Assembly: GCA_013824615.1 (NCBI GenBank)
Contig: PNOC01000018.1
Location: 1 to 61,770, forward strand
Reading direction: 5' to 3'
Length of the DNA stretch: 61,770 nt
DNA from: Thermodesulfovibrio sp.
GTDB taxonomy: Bacteria; Nitrospirota; Thermodesulfovibrionia; Thermodesulfovibrionales; UBA6898
Shown here: positions 32,886 to 45,095 of the stretch, one piece after another
How positions within the stretch are numbered: position 1 is the stretch's first letter
Layout: each line of letters opens with the position of its first letter
Notes under the pieces: generated by a model
What the model was told of the DNA's origin: nothing
The model's database searches: none
Seen by the model: only the letters and a program-made list of their open reading frames with translations
Made by a program: the position numbers and the translations under genes

Positions 32886-33182
32886 ATGAAGTTAGGTGTT
32901 TTTGTGAGTGACTTTAATCTGACGGTTGACACCCTGGACAGGCTAAAGGCCGAAAAGCTCGGCATTATACTTGTGCAAAACGGTGTGTATCATGCAACCA
33001 CAAAGGTAAGCGGCAAGGCCTCATCGCTGCTCGACAAGACCCAGAATCTGTATGTTCTTTCCGACGACGTTCAGATACGAGGACTCAAGGTAGAGGACGT
33101 TGACAAGAGGGTGAAGGTTGTTAACTACAGTGATATCGTGGATCTTATGTTCAATGACTACGATAAAACAGCTTGGCTTTAG
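32886..33182 (+). CDS. DsrH/TusB-like sulfur-relay protein (no cysteine)
   Basis: A 98-residue protein of the DsrH/TusB type: an N-terminal strand and helix (MKLGVFVSDFNL), a central LGIILVQNGVYHATT, LYVLSDDVQIRGL and the family's typical C-terminal VVNYSDIVDLMFNDYDKTAWL ending in Trp. There is no cysteine at all, so it cannot carry persulfide itself and is likely structural in a TusBCD-like hetero-oligomer. It is first of four genes transcribed together, with a good promoter and ribosome site. In sulfur oxidisers DsrEFH passes sulfur to DsrC; in sulfate reducers the role of such homologues is not settled. Confidence 0.8.
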   Translation: MKLGVFVSDFNLTVDTLDRLKAEKLGIILVQNGVYHATTKVSGKASSLLDKTQNLYVLSDDVQIRGLKVEDVDKRVKVVNYSDIVDLMFNDYDKTAWL

Positions 33183-33193
33183 GAGGCGATGAT

Positions 33194-33553
33194 ATGGGTA
33201 AATTAGCGATAGGATGTTTTCCAGGGCTGGTCGGCAACATGACCTTTGATTTTGCCATGAAACTGGCTGATGCTGCCGCCGATAAAGGGCACAGTGTAAG
33301 TATATGGTTTTCCGGAAATGCCACCGGGTCTGTCAAGGCGCACCAGAAACACCTGAAGGACTATTCGACCGGGGAAAAACCCCTGCTGGCCCTTATTGCA
33401 AAAGGTGTTGAGATCTGTACCTGTGAGGCCTGTACCGTTGCCAGAGGCGTACAGAAGCCCGAAAGTATCGAGGGTGTCCAGTGGAACGCCATGCACTGGT
33501 ATCTTGCAAGGGTCCATGCTGCAGACCGGGTCCTGCTGATAGGGGGTGAGTAA
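33194..33553 (+). CDS. DsrE/TusD-like sulfur-relay protein
   Basis: A 119-residue protein. The ATG at 33194 follows AGGAGG by seven bases. The fold starts with GKLAIGCFPGLVGNMTFDFAMKLADAAADKGHSVSIWF, and the candidate active cysteines lie in GVEICTCEACTVARGV, a position matching the persulfide-carrying Cys of DsrE/TusD. The ending ARVHAADRVLLIGGE resembles the family too. It lies 11 bases after the TusB-like gene and one base before the next gene. The three Cys in a nine-residue window (CTCEAC) are more than needed for simple sulfur transfer, so redox or metal chemistry is possible. Confidence 0.8.
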   Translation: MGKLAIGCFPGLVGNMTFDFAMKLADAAADKGHSVSIWFSGNATGSVKAHQKHLKDYSTGEKPLLALIAKGVEICTCEACTVARGVQKPESIEGVQWNAMHWYLARVHAADRVLLIGGE

Positions 33554-33554
33554 G

Positions 33555-33965
33555 ATGGGTGATGTTAAAGTAGCAATGATTGTCCAGAAACCGCAGTACA
33601 AGGGCGAGACCTCACGGCTGGCCATTACCCATGCCATATCGTACCAGACGGTCGAGATCCTGCTTGAAGACGGGGAGACAGTAACCCCGAAGCTCTGCTT
33701 CATCGGCGAGGGCGTGCTGGGACTTCAGAAGGGACAGAATGCCATGGAGCTCTATGGCATTACGAGTACTGAAAGCCATATGAAAAACACCCTTCTGGTT
33801 GACCTCGATGTGCTGGTATGCAAGGAAGATCTTGATAAATACGGAATTCCGGAAGATGCGATGCCGAATGCGGATGAGATGGGTGCTGACAAGACAATAC
33901 AGGTGGTTCCCTTTGCCGAAATACAGAAGGCAATAGAAGAAGCCAACCACGTAATGTTCTTTTAA
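33555..33965 (+). CDS. DsrF/TusC-like sulfur-relay protein
   Basis: A 136-residue protein of the DsrE/F superfamily. Start ATG 33555 follows GGGGGTGA; an alternative GTG at 33546 overlaps the upstream stop region. Sequence features: KVAMIVQKPQYKGETSRLAITHAISYQTVEILLEDG, PKLCFIGEGVLGLQKGQNAMELYG, LLVDLDVLVCKEDLDKYGI, ending AIEEANHVMFF. Two cysteines are present. The pattern of N-terminal helix and C-terminal acidic helix suits a TusC/DsrF subunit. It is third in the operon with the TusB-like, TusD-like and TusA genes. Confidence 0.78.
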   Translation: MGDVKVAMIVQKPQYKGETSRLAITHAISYQTVEILLEDGETVTPKLCFIGEGVLGLQKGQNAMELYGITSTESHMKNTLLVDLDVLVCKEDLDKYGIPEDAMPNADEMGADKTIQVVPFAEIQKAIEEANHVMFF

Positions 33966-33997
33966 ATAATAACCAATTTTTTAAGGAGGCTTTACAG

Positions 33998-34246
33998 ATG
34001 GGTGAACTCAGCAGCAAAACAGCAGATCAGACACTTGATGTTCTCGGCAGGGTATGTCCGTATCCGTTGGTTCTTACGAAAAAGGCGCTCGAGAAGATGT
34101 CGAGCGGCCAGATGATCAAGGTCCTTTGTGACGCGCCTGCCTCGGCAGAGGATTCACTGCCGAAGTTTGCAGAGAAACAGGGATTCAAGTTCGAGTCCGT
34201 AAAACTGCCTGGCGATACCTGGGAACTGTATATCCAAAAGAGCTAA
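33998..34246 (+). CDS. TusA-family sulfurtransferase
   Basis: An 82-residue sulfur carrier. It has the family signature Cys-Pro-x-Pro in LGRVCPYPLVLTKKALEKM, preceded by the DQTLDVLG strand, and a normal C-terminal strand (DTWELYIQKS). The Cys forms a persulfide that is handed to partners such as TusBCD/DsrEFH. Here it is the last gene of a cluster with DsrE/F/H-like proteins, 32 bases downstream, with the site AAGGAGG. An intrinsic terminator follows directly. Confidence 0.92.
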   Translation: MGELSSKTADQTLDVLGRVCPYPLVLTKKALEKMSSGQMIKVLCDAPASAEDSLPKFAEKQGFKFESVKLPGDTWELYIQKS

Positions 34247-34268: not shown

Positions 34269-34302
34269 AAAAAGGGGCAGCCGCGTGGCTGCCCCTTTTT
34301 TT
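34269..34302 (+). terminator. Intrinsic terminator after the sulfur-relay operon
   Basis: A 14-bp stem beginning AAAAAGGGGCAGCC with loop GCGT, closed by its complement and followed by a T-run (seven Ts in all). It is 22 bases after the tusA stop and shows no mismatch. It separates this operon from the regulator gene downstream. Confidence 0.93.
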
Positions 34303-34308
34303 CTCTTC

Positions 34309-34338
34309 TTGACAAATAATATTGGTATTTACTAGAGT
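34309..34338 (+). promoter_or_regulatory. Possible promoter of the KaiC-like/XRE/cupin regulator gene
   Basis: TTGACA at 34309-34314 is followed by a weak -10 candidate (TAGAGT at 34333-34338, spacing 18). The core GGTATTTACTAG (34324-34335) within it resembles the reverse complement of the 13-base repeats upstream of the glutamate synthase gene, so it may be an autoregulatory site. A short palindrome GTTTAAAC follows. Moderately convincing. Confidence 0.5.
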
Positions 34339-34364: not shown

Positions 34365-35621
34365 ATGTCAAAAATATCTTCAGGTGTTAAAACCCTCGAT
34401 CTGCTGATCGACTCACTCTACATTGGTGACAATGTGGTTTGGGAAGTTGATCCCGGAGCTTCCCATGACGTCTTTATCCGCCATTTTGTGCGGCAGTCCC
34501 TTGAGGACTCCCAGAAGGTCATTTATGTCAGCTTCAACAAGTCTCCCCAGAGTGTTCTGAACGAACTGGAACGCATTATGAATATCGAGCACTTTACCCT
34601 GGTTGACTGTTTTACTGAGGGAAAGGGAAAGAATGATGCCACCTTCCACAAATTTTATGACAGGTCCCCCGGCTGTGGTGTCGTCAGGATTGGGGCGCCG
34701 GGGGATATCGACAAGTTTACCGCAACGCTGAACGAGATTGAAGACAGACTTCCTCCGGGTGCCCGCTATGTATTTGACAGTCTCACGGGCATGCAGGACC
34801 TCTGGGGTGATGAAAACAGGACCTATAAGTTCTTCACGTATATGTGTCCGCGTCTCTATGACCTGGAAACCGTGGCCTACTGGATACTCGAAAAAGACGC
34901 CCATAGTCAAAAGTTCAAGGCAAACTTAAGACACATAACTCAGGATGTTTTCGATCTCTATCTGCGGCGGGATAAGCTGTATATCAAGGCCCTCAAGCTC
35001 GCAGGGAGACAGGACCGGGAAGCTTTCAAACCGCATACCTACCAGATTTCCGGGGGAGATATCTCCATTGTCTCTTCCAGAAAAGAGCCCTCAACCGATC
35101 TCGGCGTCAAACTGAAAAATATGAGAATGAAGGCCGGGATGAGTCAGAAAGACCTTGCCGACAGGGTGGAGGTTACCCCCAGTTTTATTTCTCAGTTGGA
35201 GAATAATCAGATAAGCCCCTCCTTGAATTCGTTTGTCCAGATCTGCAGGGCGCTCGGAGCAAATCCCGCAGAATTTCTCGAAGACAGTAAGGCAGTCCCC
35301 CTGCAGTGGCTCATAAGGAAGGACAGAATGTTTTCACAGCTCATGCCTGCCGGAGACGGACTGAAGGCCGCATCGATAATTGCCGGTGAACAGTTGTCTG
35401 CCCGGTTCGTGGTCATTCCTCCGCAAACCTTAGTGAAAAAGCATTTTCATTTGTTAAGAAAGCCTGAGTTCATTTTTGTTCTGCAGGGGACGGTATCGAT
35501 AACCGCGGACGATAAGACTGAAACGCTGCATCCCGGGGACAGTGTTTATCTTCTTGAGGTCGTACCGACACAATGGAAGAATGAAGGAGGTAACGATGCC
35601 GAACTTCTGGTGGTGTGGTGA
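34365..35621 (+). CDS. Three-domain regulator: KaiC/RecA-like, XRE helix-turn-helix, cupin
   Basis: A 418-residue fusion. Residues about 1-230 resemble a KaiC/RAD55-type RecA fold (SSGVKTLDLLIDSLYIGDNVVWEVDPGASHDVF), but the Walker A lysine-glycine loop is missing (DPGASHD in place of GxxGxGKT), while the Walker B-like YVFDSLTG remains, so ATP hydrolysis is unlikely. Residues about 240-300 form an XRE helix-turn-helix (MSQKDLADRVEVTPSFISQLENNQISPS), and about 330-418 a cupin whose metal motif HFH-x5-E-x6-G is intact. XRE-cupin regulators are common, but this N-terminal ATPase-like module is not. It is transcribed toward the glutamate synthase and P-II genes and lies after the sulfur-relay operon, so it may sense a small ligand and control one of these. 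I chose ATG 34365 over GTG 34353. Confidence 0.85.
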   Translation: MSKISSGVKTLDLLIDSLYIGDNVVWEVDPGASHDVFIRHFVRQSLEDSQKVIYVSFNKSPQSVLNELERIMNIEHFTLVDCFTEGKGKNDATFHKFYDRSPGCGVVRIGAPGDIDKFTATLNEIEDRLPPGARYVFDSLTGMQDLWGDENRTYKFFTYMCPRLYDLETVAYWILEKDAHSQKFKANLRHITQDVFDLYLRRDKLYIKALKLAGRQDREAFKPHTYQISGGDISIVSSRKEPSTDLGVKLKNMRMKAGMSQKDLADRVEVTPSFISQLENNQISPSLNSFVQICRALGANPAEFLEDSKAVPLQWLIRKDRMFSQLMPAGDGLKAASIIAGEQLSARFVVIPPQTLVKKHFHLLRKPEFIFVLQGTVSITADDKTETLHPGDSVYLLEVVPTQWKNEGGNDAELLVVW

Positions 35622-35687
35622 GATATCACTAAGTTTCCCGTTTTTTTATTGCATCATGGTTGAGGGTATTTTTTTGTCTGTACTGTA

Positions 35688-35731
35688 TAGAAATACTTAA
35701 TTTAATGCTGTTAAAAATTAGAAATACTTAA
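35688..35731 (+). repeat. Two 13-bp direct repeats upstream of glutamate synthase gene
   Basis: TAGAAATACTTAA occurs exactly at 35688-35700 and again at 35719-35731, with starts 31 bases apart, close to three helical turns, so both lie on one face of the DNA. They sit about 90-130 bases before the start codon and are the most conspicuous element in the 198-base intergenic region. Candidate binding sites for a transcription factor. Confidence 0.75.
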
Positions 35732-35819
35732 GGGGGTGAGCGTATAGCAGAAGGAAATAATGTGCCGTCGGTGAGATTGTAGAAATTGATGACTGAAAAA
35801 ATTTAAGGAGGTAGTGAAA

Positions 35820-37412
35820 ATGAATTTACAGCAGCCCAACGCCAATGAGGCAACCAGGACTCACAACAGGTCAAAAAGTGTATCACCCATGAGCGGACTC
35901 TGCACCAGATGTATCGATGGCTGCAGAGGAAACTGTGAAGTGTTTAAATCAACCTTCAGGGGCAGAGAACTGCTTTATCCAGGGCCGTTCGGTGAAATCA
36001 CCGCTGGCGGTGATAAAAACTATCCCATAGATTATTCTCACCTGAATATTCACGGATATGCTTTTGGGGCAAAGGGACTGCCGAAGGGCCAGAAGGGTGA
36101 TCCCGATACCGCAAAGTTTCCAAACGTGAATACTGAAACTGCCTATGGCTGGACAAAAAAAGTAAAAATGAAGGTTCCGATATTTACAGGTGCGCTGGGG
36201 TCCACAGAAATTGCCCGCAAGAATTGGGAGCATTTCGCCGTTGGTGCGGCAATTTCAGGTGTTACGATTGTCTGCGGTGAAAATGTCTGCGGTATTGATC
36301 CGGCACTTGAATTAAGCAGTAAAAAAATGATTACTAAGGCTCCTGATATGGACCGCAGAATCGAAACATACCGCCGGTACCATCAGGGATTTGGTGAGAT
36401 CCTGGTGCAGATGAATGTTGAAGACACCCGGCTGGGTGTGGCTGAATACATTATCAACAAGCACGGGATTGAAACCATAGAGTTGAAATGGGGACAGGGA
36501 GCCAAATGCATTGGCGGCGAAATCAAGGTGGGTACTCTGGAACGCGCTCTTGAATTACAGAAACGGGGCTATATTGTTACTCCTGATCCATCCGATCCCG
36601 TGGTGAAGGCGGCCTTCAAAGACGGAGCCATAAAAGAATTTGAGCGTCATAGCCGCCTCGGTTTTATCGACGAAAAAAGTTTTTATGCAGAAGTCAACAG
36701 ACTGAGAAAACTCGGATTCAAAAGGATCACCCTGAAGACCGGTGCCTATGGCCTGCGTGAACTGGCGATGGCGATCAAGTGGAGTTCCAAGGCCAAGATT
36801 GACCTGCTGACGATCGATGGGGCTCCGGGTGGGACCGGCATGAGTCCCTGGCGTATGATGGAAGAATGGGGCATGCCTTCACTCTACCTCCACGCAGCAG
36901 CAGCAGAGTTTTGCAAGCATTTGGATAAAAAAGGGGAGCGCGCGCCTGATATAGCCTTTGCCGGAGGTTTCAGCAGTGAAGACGGTATCTTCAAGGCTCT
37001 TGCCCTGGGAGCTCCGTATACCAAGGCGGTCTGTATGGGCCGGGCACTCATGATTCCCGGTATGGTCGGCAAGAATATTGCGAAGTGGATAAAGGCAAAT
37101 GATCTTCCCAAAACCGTGAGTGAATTCGGCTCCACGATTGAAGAAATCTTTGTCTGCTACGAAGAGGTGAAACACCTTGTAGGAAATAAAGAGATCAATA
37201 ACATTCCGCTGGGAGCTCTCGGTATTTATAGTTACGCACAGAAAATCAGGGTAGGATTGCAGCAGTTAATGGCGGGAGCCCGTTGTTTTAACGTCGACTC
37301 CATTACCAGAAACGAGCTGATGTCTCTTACTGAGGAATGCGCCAAGGTTACCGGCATACCCTACCTGATGGAATCGTACAGGAAGGAAGCAATGAAAATA
37401 CTTAACTCATGA
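35820..37412 (+). CDS. FMN-binding glutamate synthase family protein
   Basis: A 530-residue protein matching the FMN/synthase domain of glutamate synthase (the archaeal-type, stand-alone version). The N-terminal segment has four cysteines (LCTRCIDGCRGNCEVF) that may bind an Fe-S cluster. The barrel shows IDGAPGGTGMSPWRMM, AFAGGFSSEDGIFKALALGAP and MGRALMIPGM, typical of the FMN site and the loop near the 3Fe-4S cluster. It lacks the glutaminase and the beta-subunit domains of full GltB/GltD, so it must obtain ammonia and electrons from partners. A ribosome site AAGGAGG lies eight bases before ATG 35820. The glnB gene follows, consistent with nitrogen assimilation. Confidence 0.88.
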   Translation: MNLQQPNANEATRTHNRSKSVSPMSGLCTRCIDGCRGNCEVFKSTFRGRELLYPGPFGEITAGGDKNYPIDYSHLNIHGYAFGAKGLPKGQKGDPDTAKFPNVNTETAYGWTKKVKMKVPIFTGALGSTEIARKNWEHFAVGAAISGVTIVCGENVCGIDPALELSSKKMITKAPDMDRRIETYRRYHQGFGEILVQMNVEDTRLGVAEYIINKHGIETIELKWGQGAKCIGGEIKVGTLERALELQKRGYIVTPDPSDPVVKAAFKDGAIKEFERHSRLGFIDEKSFYAEVNRLRKLGFKRITLKTGAYGLRELAMAIKWSSKAKIDLLTIDGAPGGTGMSPWRMMEEWGMPSLYLHAAAAEFCKHLDKKGERAPDIAFAGGFSSEDGIFKALALGAPYTKAVCMGRALMIPGMVGKNIAKWIKANDLPKTVSEFGSTIEEIFVCYEEVKHLVGNKEINNIPLGALGIYSYAQKIRVGLQQLMAGARCFNVDSITRNELMSLTEECAKVTGIPYLMESYRKEAMKILNS

Positions 37413-37517: not shown

Positions 37518-37913
<396 letters not shown>

Positions 37914-39049: not shown

Positions 39050-40981
39050 TTACAAGGCTATGCGCAGGCCTCCATAGAAGTTACGCTCCGGGGCCGGATA
39101 GAAATTCTTGTTGCCGCCGAACCCGACAATACCGTATTCAGAGAATTTTTCATTGAACAGGTTATTGATGCCCACATAGGCGGTGAGATTCTTACAGGTG
39201 TAGGAGAGCTTGGCATTGACCACGACAGACGAGTCCATTTTATCGTAGGCATTGAGGACATCATTGTCGAGATATTTTTTTCCGTTCCAGGTCAGGTTTG
39301 CTGCCAGGAGGAAGGACTTCAGGAATTTGTAATCAGCACCCAGGCTGGCCGTATATTGGGGAACCAGCTGGATATGGTTGCCGTCATAGGGGCCTGCCTT
39401 GAACTTGGCGTCCGAGTATCCGAGGGTTCCAAAGACCGCGATGTCATCGTTTACCGATGCGGTAACTCCTGTCTCAACACCATAATGACGCGTCTTGGCA
39501 AGGTTTTCATTTGCACCAAAGCCGAAGGCGCCGCCGGTCGGATTATAGAACAGTTCATCCTTCACGTCCATGGTATAGGCCGTAAGCCTGGCCTGCAGGC
39601 GCTTGCCGAAGGAATGCACCACGCCGGCTTCATAGGTGTCTGAACGCTCAGGCTTGAGTGTGGTAATCACGCCGCTGAAATCAAATATTTCATCCGTTGT
39701 CGGCAAGCGGTAGCCTTTTGCATAGTTGATGAACAGCTTTGACCTGTCGGCATAGTTGTATGTCAGTCCTGCCTTTGCGGCGTTTTCCCTGAACTTCTGT
39801 GTCCCGATCACCTGGTCCTCGAATTTTGCGTCGGCATACCGGTAGCCGAGGCTGAGGGAGAACTGCGGAGAGATGAAGAACTCATCCTGCAGGTAGAACC
39901 CTGTATCTGTTTTTGACAGGTCAGAGTTACCGAAGGAGGTTTTGTTGGCAACGGCAGAATCACTATAGTCTACCCCGGCCACCAGCAGGTTTCTCATGGT
40001 GCCATACTTTTTGTCGATCGTGAGCTTCGCCCTCAGACCGGAGGTGGCGGTGTCTCTCTTCGTATTATATGAGGTGCCGAAGAAAACAAGGGTGGAGTCA
40101 TACTCCCGGTTGTCGTAGCTGTAGCCGATTTCAAGGTCCCCCCAGGTCCCAAGTCCAAAATTTGCTTTTGTATCAATATAGCGCTGGTTATAGCTGACCC
40201 GGTCATCCGGTTTGGTAGACTGCCTGCGGTCAGCAGCCAGTTCGCTCTCGGTCAGTCCGCCGGGGAGCCCCTGCTTGTCTTTATGGTAACCTGCCGCTAC
40301 ATCAAAGGTCAGATGGTCGTTCAACCTGAAAGAGAGCTTGGTGCCGAGGTCGTTTGACTTGAAGTGACTGTTGGCGCGGTAGCCGGAGGTATCATGGTAC
40401 TTGGTAAAGACAAAGTAACTGACCCAGTCATTTCCGCCGGTCACGGTGCCGCTTTCTGTCTGGCCCCTGTAGCTTTCAGCCCGGGCATCAAGCACGAGGG
40501 TAAGAGCCTGCTTATATCCTTTTTTCGTTATGATATTGATAGCGCCGGCCATGGCGTTATCACCGTAAAGAACGCTCTGGCTCCCCCTGACGACTTCGAT
40601 CCTCTCGACATTCTCAAGGGCGATCGTATTCCAGTCTACGCCGCTGAGGTCGATCTCGTTCAGCCTCCGGCCGTCGATCATGATAACCGTGTTCAGCCCG
40701 CGAGCAAAACCACGCATGTCGACGGTTGATTTTGTTCCGGTACCATACAGGTCTCTGATGATAAGGCCTTCTTCATTTCTCAGCAGATCCTGCACCGTCG
40801 CTGCGGTTGATTTTTTTATTTCGTCCTGAGTAATGACGGTGACATTTGAGGATATTTTATATATCTCTTCGTCGGCCCTCGTTGCCGTGACGACAATCTC
40901 ATCTATGTTTATCTTTTCCTCTGCCCATACCTGTGAAACCAGAAGCAAGGCCATGCATGCTGCACTTACTATTTTTTTCAT
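39050..40981 (-). CDS. btuB: TonB-dependent vitamin B12 receptor
   Basis: A 643-residue outer-membrane receptor. A signal peptide (residues 1-20, ending QVWAEEK) is followed by the TonB-box region (INIDEIVVTATR), the plug domain (about 40-160; VQDLLRNEEGLIIRDLYGTGTKSTVDMRGF, IEVVRGSQSVLYGDNAMAGAINI), and a 22-strand barrel ending ...NFYGGLRIAL with Leu last. The assignment to B12 rests on the cobalamin riboswitch that directly precedes it (41110-41248) and on the btuFCD genes nearby; substrate is otherwise not deducible. It is co-transcribed with the TonB gene downstream. The ribosome site, AAAGGA, lies 11-12 bases before ATG. Confidence 0.9.
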   Translation of the reverse strand: MKKIVSAACMALLLVSQVWAEEKINIDEIVVTATRADEEIYKISSNVTVITQDEIKKSTAATVQDLLRNEEGLIIRDLYGTGTKSTVDMRGFARGLNTVIMIDGRRLNEIDLSGVDWNTIALENVERIEVVRGSQSVLYGDNAMAGAINIITKKGYKQALTLVLDARAESYRGQTESGTVTGGNDWVSYFVFTKYHDTSGYRANSHFKSNDLGTKLSFRLNDHLTFDVAAGYHKDKQGLPGGLTESELAADRRQSTKPDDRVSYNQRYIDTKANFGLGTWGDLEIGYSYDNREYDSTLVFFGTSYNTKRDTATSGLRAKLTIDKKYGTMRNLLVAGVDYSDSAVANKTSFGNSDLSKTDTGFYLQDEFFISPQFSLSLGYRYADAKFEDQVIGTQKFRENAAKAGLTYNYADRSKLFINYAKGYRLPTTDEIFDFSGVITTLKPERSDTYEAGVVHSFGKRLQARLTAYTMDVKDELFYNPTGGAFGFGANENLAKTRHYGVETGVTASVNDDIAVFGTLGYSDAKFKAGPYDGNHIQLVPQYTASLGADYKFLKSFLLAANLTWNGKKYLDNDVLNAYDKMDSSVVVNAKLSYTCKNLTAYVGINNLFNEKFSEYGIVGFGGNKNFYPAPERNFYGGLRIAL

Positions 40982-41109
40982 ATTCTCATATTCCTTTCTT
41001 GGTAGCTTATTTCCTGCTGCGCTTCTTATCGGTCCGGGTCCGTCCCGGTATGCTATCCATCCATGAATCTCATCGCGCTCCTCCTCTTCCCTCGAAGGGT
41101 TTCTACTCT
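40982..41109 (-). other. Expression platform between B12 riboswitch and btuB
   Basis: This leader segment has a small GC hairpin (CCGGG-ACGGA-CCCGG, about 41035-41049 in minus sense) without a following T-run, and a weak ribosome site. I see no gene in it. Together with the aptamer it fills the whole 308-base gap between cobC and btuB. Confidence 0.5.
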
Positions 41110-41248
41110 GAGATGTCCAGGGTCTCCTGACTCAGGGCCTCCTACTCACAGGCCTTCCCGTCCCTAAGGACAGTGGCTTTTCTGTTTTCGTTCCCTTTAC
41201 AGTTGCGGGGCAGTTTCCGTTTTTCACGGGATTCCCCTCGAACACCTC
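41110..41248 (-). promoter_or_regulatory. Cobalamin riboswitch upstream of btuB-tonB
   Basis: On the minus strand the leader contains the class I cobalamin (AdoCbl) aptamer landmarks in order: GGTGTTCGAGGGGAATCCC, ACTGCCCCGCAACTGTAA, the B12-box GCCACTGTC, GGGAAGGC, and GAGTCAGGAGACC. The P1 helix is formed by 41240-41248 pairing with 41110-41118, which sets the aptamer limits. No T-rich terminator appears between it and the btuB start (129 bases later), so control may be by blocking the ribosome site. Confidence 0.93.
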
Positions 41249-41289
41249 TTCTGAGCTGCCTAAAGCAGCTTATACTACCGTCATAAAGC

Positions 41290-44671: not shown

Positions 44672-44782
44672 GCACCCTGGTTTACTTTATCCTCACCTTC
44701 CTCCACGGAAAGGCATGTCAGATCAGCGGCTTTCATACACTCAGTGCTGCCTGAGTAGGCACGGTTCGCTGATTACTCTCTT

Positions 44783-44958
44783 GTACAGGCAGGTCTTCTG
44801 GCTCTCCCGGTCTTTGCCAAGCCTTCCCATCCGCTGCGGCGGACAGTGGCGCATTTCCAGCAAAAAACGTCTACTCCGAAACACCGGAGTCGGGACTACA
44901 GCGGCGGGACCGCTCCTGATTCCAACAGGATTCCCTTTTAAGTCAACAACACCTGTAA
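44783..44958 (-). promoter_or_regulatory. Cobalamin riboswitch upstream of btuFCD-cobC
   Basis: On the minus strand the aptamer markers are in order: ACAGGTG, AAAAGGGAATCCTGTTGGAATCAGGAGCGGTCCCGCCGCTGTAG split over 44900-44941, the CGCCACTGTCCGC B12 box, GGGAAGGC, and GAGCCAGAAGACCTGCCTGTA. P1 is formed by 44952-44957 with 44784-44789. About 110 bases further on is a terminator (44630-44671). This is a second, divergent aptamer from the one at btuB. Confidence 0.93.
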
Positions 44959-45095
44959 CTGTTTCTAGTTTGCAGGATGACAGGAGATAAAAGCAACAGT
45001 GTTTTCATCCGGAGCGCCGCAGCAGAACTGCCGTGTTGCAAAAAAAGAACCGACGTTTTATCATTAAAAACAAACAAGGGATGGAAAGAGGTGTT
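44959..45095. other. Intergenic region upstream of riboswitch and lipoprotein gene
   Basis: Holds the divergent start regions of the btuF transcript (minus) and the small lipoprotein gene (plus). No convincing pair of -35/-10 hexamers seen; AT-rich segments near 44985-45065. No gene found. Confidence 0.35.

Follow-up and report, generated by a model that had tools for sequence, protein, structure and literature searches.

Proteins of the KaiC/RAD55 group, RecA ATPases collected in PF06745 and represented by PH0284, SSO2452 and cyanobacterial KaiC, are the nearest described counterparts of the N-terminal half of the regulator considered here. They share with it a fold that extends over the entire domain (Z 22-25) as well as the Walker B strand, and PH0284 also an F-T-x-G region. 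The regulator differs from them in lacking the P-loop Lys/Thr and the catalytic Glu pair, in scoring below the Pfam cut-off, and in belonging to a set of proteins in which such a pseudo-KaiC (KaiC*) domain is fused to transcription-regulator or PPDK_N parts. The N-domain of BcsE, too, has a RecA/KaiC-type fold that is degenerate, diverged in Walker A and used in regulation, and it self-associates in two-hybrid assays (PMC7439463), but BcsE belongs to cellulose secretion and its partner domains are degenerate REC-GGDEF. The C-terminal half resembles regulators of the PuuR type, in which an XRE helix-turn-helix (HTH) is followed by Cupin_2, and a PuuR-like profile matches the window protein; an extra pseudo-KaiC domain, a cupin without metal ligands and a linkage to ammonium assimilation set it apart from PuuR. 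NrpR, a regulator of ammonium assimilation found at the same loci, has the operator GGTA-N6-TACC in Methanosarcina (PMC3177094). It is an unrelated protein, operators of this type track with NrpR and not with the KaiC* regulator, and the Pfam scan of the window protein gave no match to NRD1_2 (PF01995). Finally, the GAF-AAA+-Fis part of a sibling sigma54 class is similar to NifA (a Brocadiaceae member reaches 510 bits against the NifA model, slightly under the cut-off of 529), whereas the pseudo-KaiC domain in front of it is an addition.

The window, i.e., the whole stretch of DNA that was analysed, comprises 61,770 nucleotides from a Thermodesulfovibrio sp. (Nitrospirota). The regulator is encoded on its forward strand by a single open reading frame at 34365..35621 (ATG at 34365, stop ending at 35621), preceded by a sigma70-like promoter, TTGACA-18-TAGAGT (34309..34338, +), which is also present in aligned orthologs. 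The 418-aa product consists of a pseudo-KaiC domain recognised in the predicted structure (aa 1-237; 34365..35075, +), an XRE HTH (aa 246-305; 35100..35279, +) and a cupin domain (aa 326-418; 35340..35618, +). In a Pfam scan of the protein, HTH_3 matched aa 250-304 with 51 bits (cut-off 23) and Cupin_2 matched aa 348-418 with 42.5 bits (cut-off 27.2), the arrangement of XRE-cupin regulators, and PF06745 stayed under its gathering cut-off of 26.6, with 24.9 bits for the domain alone and 22.6 for the whole protein. Orthologs at ~30 Nitrospirota loci are 45-71% identical over their full length, and the architecture is therefore not a chance join. The preliminary description of this DNA knew of no account of such a combination, which holds within the libraries and papers searched: a literature search for degenerate KaiC, cupin and nitrogen together, covering mostly non-subscription papers, found no description, and the KaiC*-XRE-cupin architecture is, as far as these sources show, undescribed. 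Directly upstream of the regulator, genes for DsrH, two DsrE-like proteins and TusA stand in a row on the same strand (32886-34246), and a strong terminator-like hairpin (34269-34300) closes the run. Elsewhere in the window, two cobalamin riboswitches lie on the reverse strand (41099-41273 and 44771-44971), the former followed by a TonB-dependent-receptor-like gene (39050-40981, reverse strand).

AlphaFold2 models were built on a 45-row alignment and reached a mean pLDDT of 87 for the full-length protein, and a pLDDT of 92 with a pTM of 0.90 for the N-domain alone. The N-domain model matches PH0284 (2dr3) with VIA Z 25.0 and an rmsd of 2.0 over 214 aligned residues, and KaiC with Z 23-24; the full-length model agrees with the N-domain-only result, and a sequence search against solved structures returned weak KaiC-type matches only. 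The N-terminal module had been described as KaiC/RAD55-like, with a structure-based search set as the test of its RecA-likeness, and this search confirms, at the level of the predicted model, a RecA/KaiC fold in the N-terminal half.

The nucleotide site of the predicted fold is altered at several points. With PH0284 and KaiC as reference, G-G-P-G-T-G-K-T is replaced by V-D-P-G-A-S-H-D and E-E by N-K; the degenerate Walker A, V-D-P-G-A-S-H-D-V, is at 34446..34472 (+), aligned with GGPGTGKT of PH0284, and the Asn-Lys in place of the catalytic Glu-Glu pair of KaiC at 34536..34541 (+). Among 109 relatives drawn from all architectures, none has the Walker A pattern GxxxxGK[ST], and the Walker B strand is retained, in the window protein as the invariant core YVFDS (34767..34781, +) followed by LTG; the alignments thus agree with the earlier remark that Walker A is missing and a Walker B-like stretch retained. 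The Walker B Asp is kept in 37/37 orthologs, and at the catalytic Glu pair, located after the strand following Walker A, the first position is Asn in 37/37 and the second Arg/Lys in 32/37. Acidic residues are aligned near the phosphate-binding position. With other residues in place of the P-loop Lys/Thr and of both catalytic Glu, nucleotide hydrolysis by the KaiC* domain is unlikely, judging from sequence. A GDNVVWE signature (34425..34445, +) occupies the strand before the P-loop position, with a GDN-like motif in 108/109 relatives, and G21, N23, W26, E27, F137, D138, C161, P162, Y172 and Q193, among others, are invariant in a 26-row alignment. These invariant residues argue for a retained function other than ATP hydrolysis.

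The pseudo-KaiC domain was found in 45 of 295 Nitrospirota genomes, one copy each, and in 126 of 345 genomes of the phylum of G064, the genome that holds the Desulfuromonadaceae locus L067. Its forms in the latter phylum include a ~440-aa XRE-cupin protein, a 365-aa KaiC*-XRE protein without cupin, and a long form of ~820 to 1,200 aa (mostly 860-1,000) with a PPDK_N domain in the members scanned. Planctomycetota and one Vicinamibacteria genome carry a third arrangement, in which the pseudo-KaiC domain heads a GAF-sigma54-Fis activator (L062-L066, L073). In a tree of the domain, the PPDK_N, sigma54 and short-XRE classes each form one side of a branch, and four changes suffice for all groups together.

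Control of sulfur or nitrogen genes had been suggested for the regulator, and gene neighbourhoods support the nitrogen part, the sulfur part being unsupported. Among 31 Nitrospirota loci, 29 were readable (the other two stop at contig edges), and in all 29 the gene directly downstream of the regulator is c0, which encodes a glutamate-synthase-like FMN protein; this count comprises 28 loci with c0 next and L048, where c0 begins and then runs into Ns. NrpR lies downstream in 15 of these loci, PII and glutamine synthetase appear in several, and a split glutamate synthase is encoded divergently, upstream of the regulator, in 12-14. An independent sample of 52 loci, nearly all non-Nitrospirota, was compared with 26 random regions from the same kinds of genomes, counting any of ten nitrogen-assimilation genes within ~9 kb. 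Such neighbours were present at 37/52 loci versus 1/26 random regions (Fisher p 5e-9), and still at 22/52 with c0 uncounted (p 4e-4), both p-values being indicative because the loci are phylogenetically non-independent; 15/52 loci had none. PPDK_N-type loci had a nitrogen-assimilation neighbour in 15/20 cases, mostly glutamate dehydrogenase. Two pseudo-KaiC forms occur together with NrpR, c0, glutamate dehydrogenase, split glutamate synthase and glutamine synthetase at a single locus (L111), and one run of genes in the Vicinamibacteria genome G061 encodes the sigma54 form, GlnD, an ammonium transporter and the PPDK_N form. The linkage to nitrogen genes spans the three main architectures.

In the window, c0, the probable target gene, lies at 35814..37412 (+; PF01645, 61.2 bits) and is followed by a gene for the PII signal protein GlnB/GlnK (37551..37913, +; PF00543, 116 bits). 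The match of c0 to Glu_synthase is partial and “glutamate-synthase-like” is a sequence label; an additional split glutamate synthase is encoded elsewhere in the window's genome. When 26 genomes were searched for c0, 19 had no c0, and the regulator was found in 0/19. Of the seven with c0, three (G035, G554, G057) have the regulator and G011 is without it; G009 and G493 hold regulator remnants, internally deleted in the KaiC and HTH parts with both ends and c0 kept (L183 and L187, respectively), and in G479 the region is cut by the contig start.

A candidate operator or promoter, the element TTTTTTGYC-N-ATACTNAA, is located 5' of c0 (35670..35700, +) as the sole match in the window's genome, with a second ATACTTAA copy downstream of it (35724-35731). 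Across loci the pattern reads TTTTTTGYC-N12..16-ATACTNAA, often with another ATACTTAA-like copy ~31 bp on. It matches in 13/24 genomes and is at or near c0 in nearly all of them (11/12 beyond the window's genome, apart from the following exceptions): G034 and G035 show, by the exact pattern, no more than a stray match, and G482 has one additional match. This element is the best candidate for a target of the regulator. It may instead be a site for another factor, or simply part of the promoter, because G011 keeps c0 and the element with the regulator absent, and because of the G009 and G493 remnants. The leader is highly constant in ~25 loci (35670-35731 in the window), with a T-run, GYC, 13-14 bases and ATACTTAA; it could be a promoter, an operator or a regulatory RNA, and an Rfam scan of it gave no RNA element at gathering scores. 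Several c0 leaders have an extra GGAGGTG ~100 bases ahead of the real start.

A separate motif, the palindrome GGYAACCGTTTRCC, stands just ahead of the start codon in most Nitrospirota orthologs (L031-L060). Genome-wide, 18 exact matches were found in 12 genomes, 17 of them at or by the promoters of the regulator, glutamate synthase, glutamine synthetase or c0, and the reversed pattern gave no match. The palindrome fits the NrpR operator, and NrpR is present in the motif-bearing genomes tested; in relatives, the regulator gene therefore looks like part of the NrpR regulon. The window's genome has neither an NRD1_2 match anywhere nor the motif and, as read from this assembly, the NrpR control layer is missing in the organism. 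As an operator of the KaiC* regulator itself, GGYAACCGTTTRCC was rejected on the same grounds.

We consider it probable that the protein is a local transcription factor of ammonium assimilation, with a KaiC module dead for ATP hydrolysis, a target in the ATACTTAA element and a metal-free cupin. In the mechanism that we infer, from the DNA target and the ligand to the oligomer and the sign of regulation, the XRE domain would be the DNA-binding part, with the ATACTTAA-containing element ahead of c0 as its most likely site, and the regulator would control c0 and probably the following genes too, such as PII. The KaiC-fold domain, having lost ATP hydrolysis, would most likely serve for head-to-tail assembly or as a platform for binding a partner or ligand; self-association of a diverged KaiC fold without ATP binding has a precedent in BcsE (PMC7439463). 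This platform would report nitrogen status, and the metal-free cupin would provide a second, small ligand pocket.

We regard as unlikely a role of the KaiC-like domain as an energy sensor, in which the altered loop would have kept the ability to bind ATP, ADP or a signalling nucleotide and the nitrogen linkage would be a readout of ATP and 2-oxoglutarate with PII-like logic. Such a sensor would suit the retained Walker B and overall KaiC fold, the adjoining PII genes and the fusion of one class to the nucleotide-binding domain PPDK_N, but it has to contend with the loss of the P-loop Lys/Thr and the catalytic Glu pair in the relatives inspected, and with the acidic residues near the phosphate-binding position.

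The cupin bears on another possibility, namely that it is the only sensor, as in PuuR, and that the KaiC domain is a passive dimer or ring scaffold. An HTH joined to an intact, metal-binding cupin had been proposed; both domains were found, but the metal site is degenerate. The first cupin motif reads HFH-x5-E in the window protein, the second metal His is kept in 4/37 orthologs, and the third (distal) one in 0/37, with Q in the window protein. Because the second His is rare and the third absent, metal binding is unlikely, and these ligand counts contradict the earlier claim. The XRE-cupin arrangement with its PuuR-like profile match, and the self-associating N-domain of BcsE, are what one would expect of a cupin sensor on a KaiC scaffold. 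On the other hand, conservation within Nitrospirota is lowest in the cupin (mean identity 35.8%, against 62% for KaiC*, which is on a par with XRE at 62.7%), the 365-aa class keeps KaiC* and XRE with no cupin, and in the sigma54 and PPDK_N classes nitrogen genes are accompanied by the KaiC domain and not by the cupin, all of which makes this reading quite improbable. Regulation of the four sulfur-relay genes (DsrH, DsrE, TusA), suggested by their position directly upstream on the same strand, was rejected as very improbable, given the terminator-like hairpin and separate promoter in between and orthologous loci that adjoin nitrogen genes, with no DsrH/DsrE/TusA or recurrent sulfur cluster found beside orthologs in the 31-locus Nitrospirota set.

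Beyond the preferred reading of a local ammonium-assimilation regulator, we tentatively suggest, at somewhat less than even odds, that pseudo-KaiC is a general module for sensing nitrogen status, not described before, which is plugged into XRE-cupin, NifA-like sigma54 and PPDK_N phosphotransfer-like outputs in at least five phyla and responds in all of them to a shared signal (2-oxoglutarate, glutamine/glutamate or a PII-type partner, for example). The fusions of pseudo-KaiC with PPDK_N (L067-L077, L111-L132) mostly adjoin glutamate dehydrogenase, and are possibly control proteins for this enzyme. Nitrogen control is poorly mapped in Nitrospirota, among sulfate and metal reducers of the Desulfobacterota type and among anammox-related Planctomycetota, and one module by which regulators of ammonium assimilation can be recognised would give testable genes at once in those groups. 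It would also be a clear example of a dead enzyme, with the fold of a clock-type ATPase, put to use as a regulator, and the broken KaiC module looks like an undescribed part of the control of nitrogen use in many bacteria.
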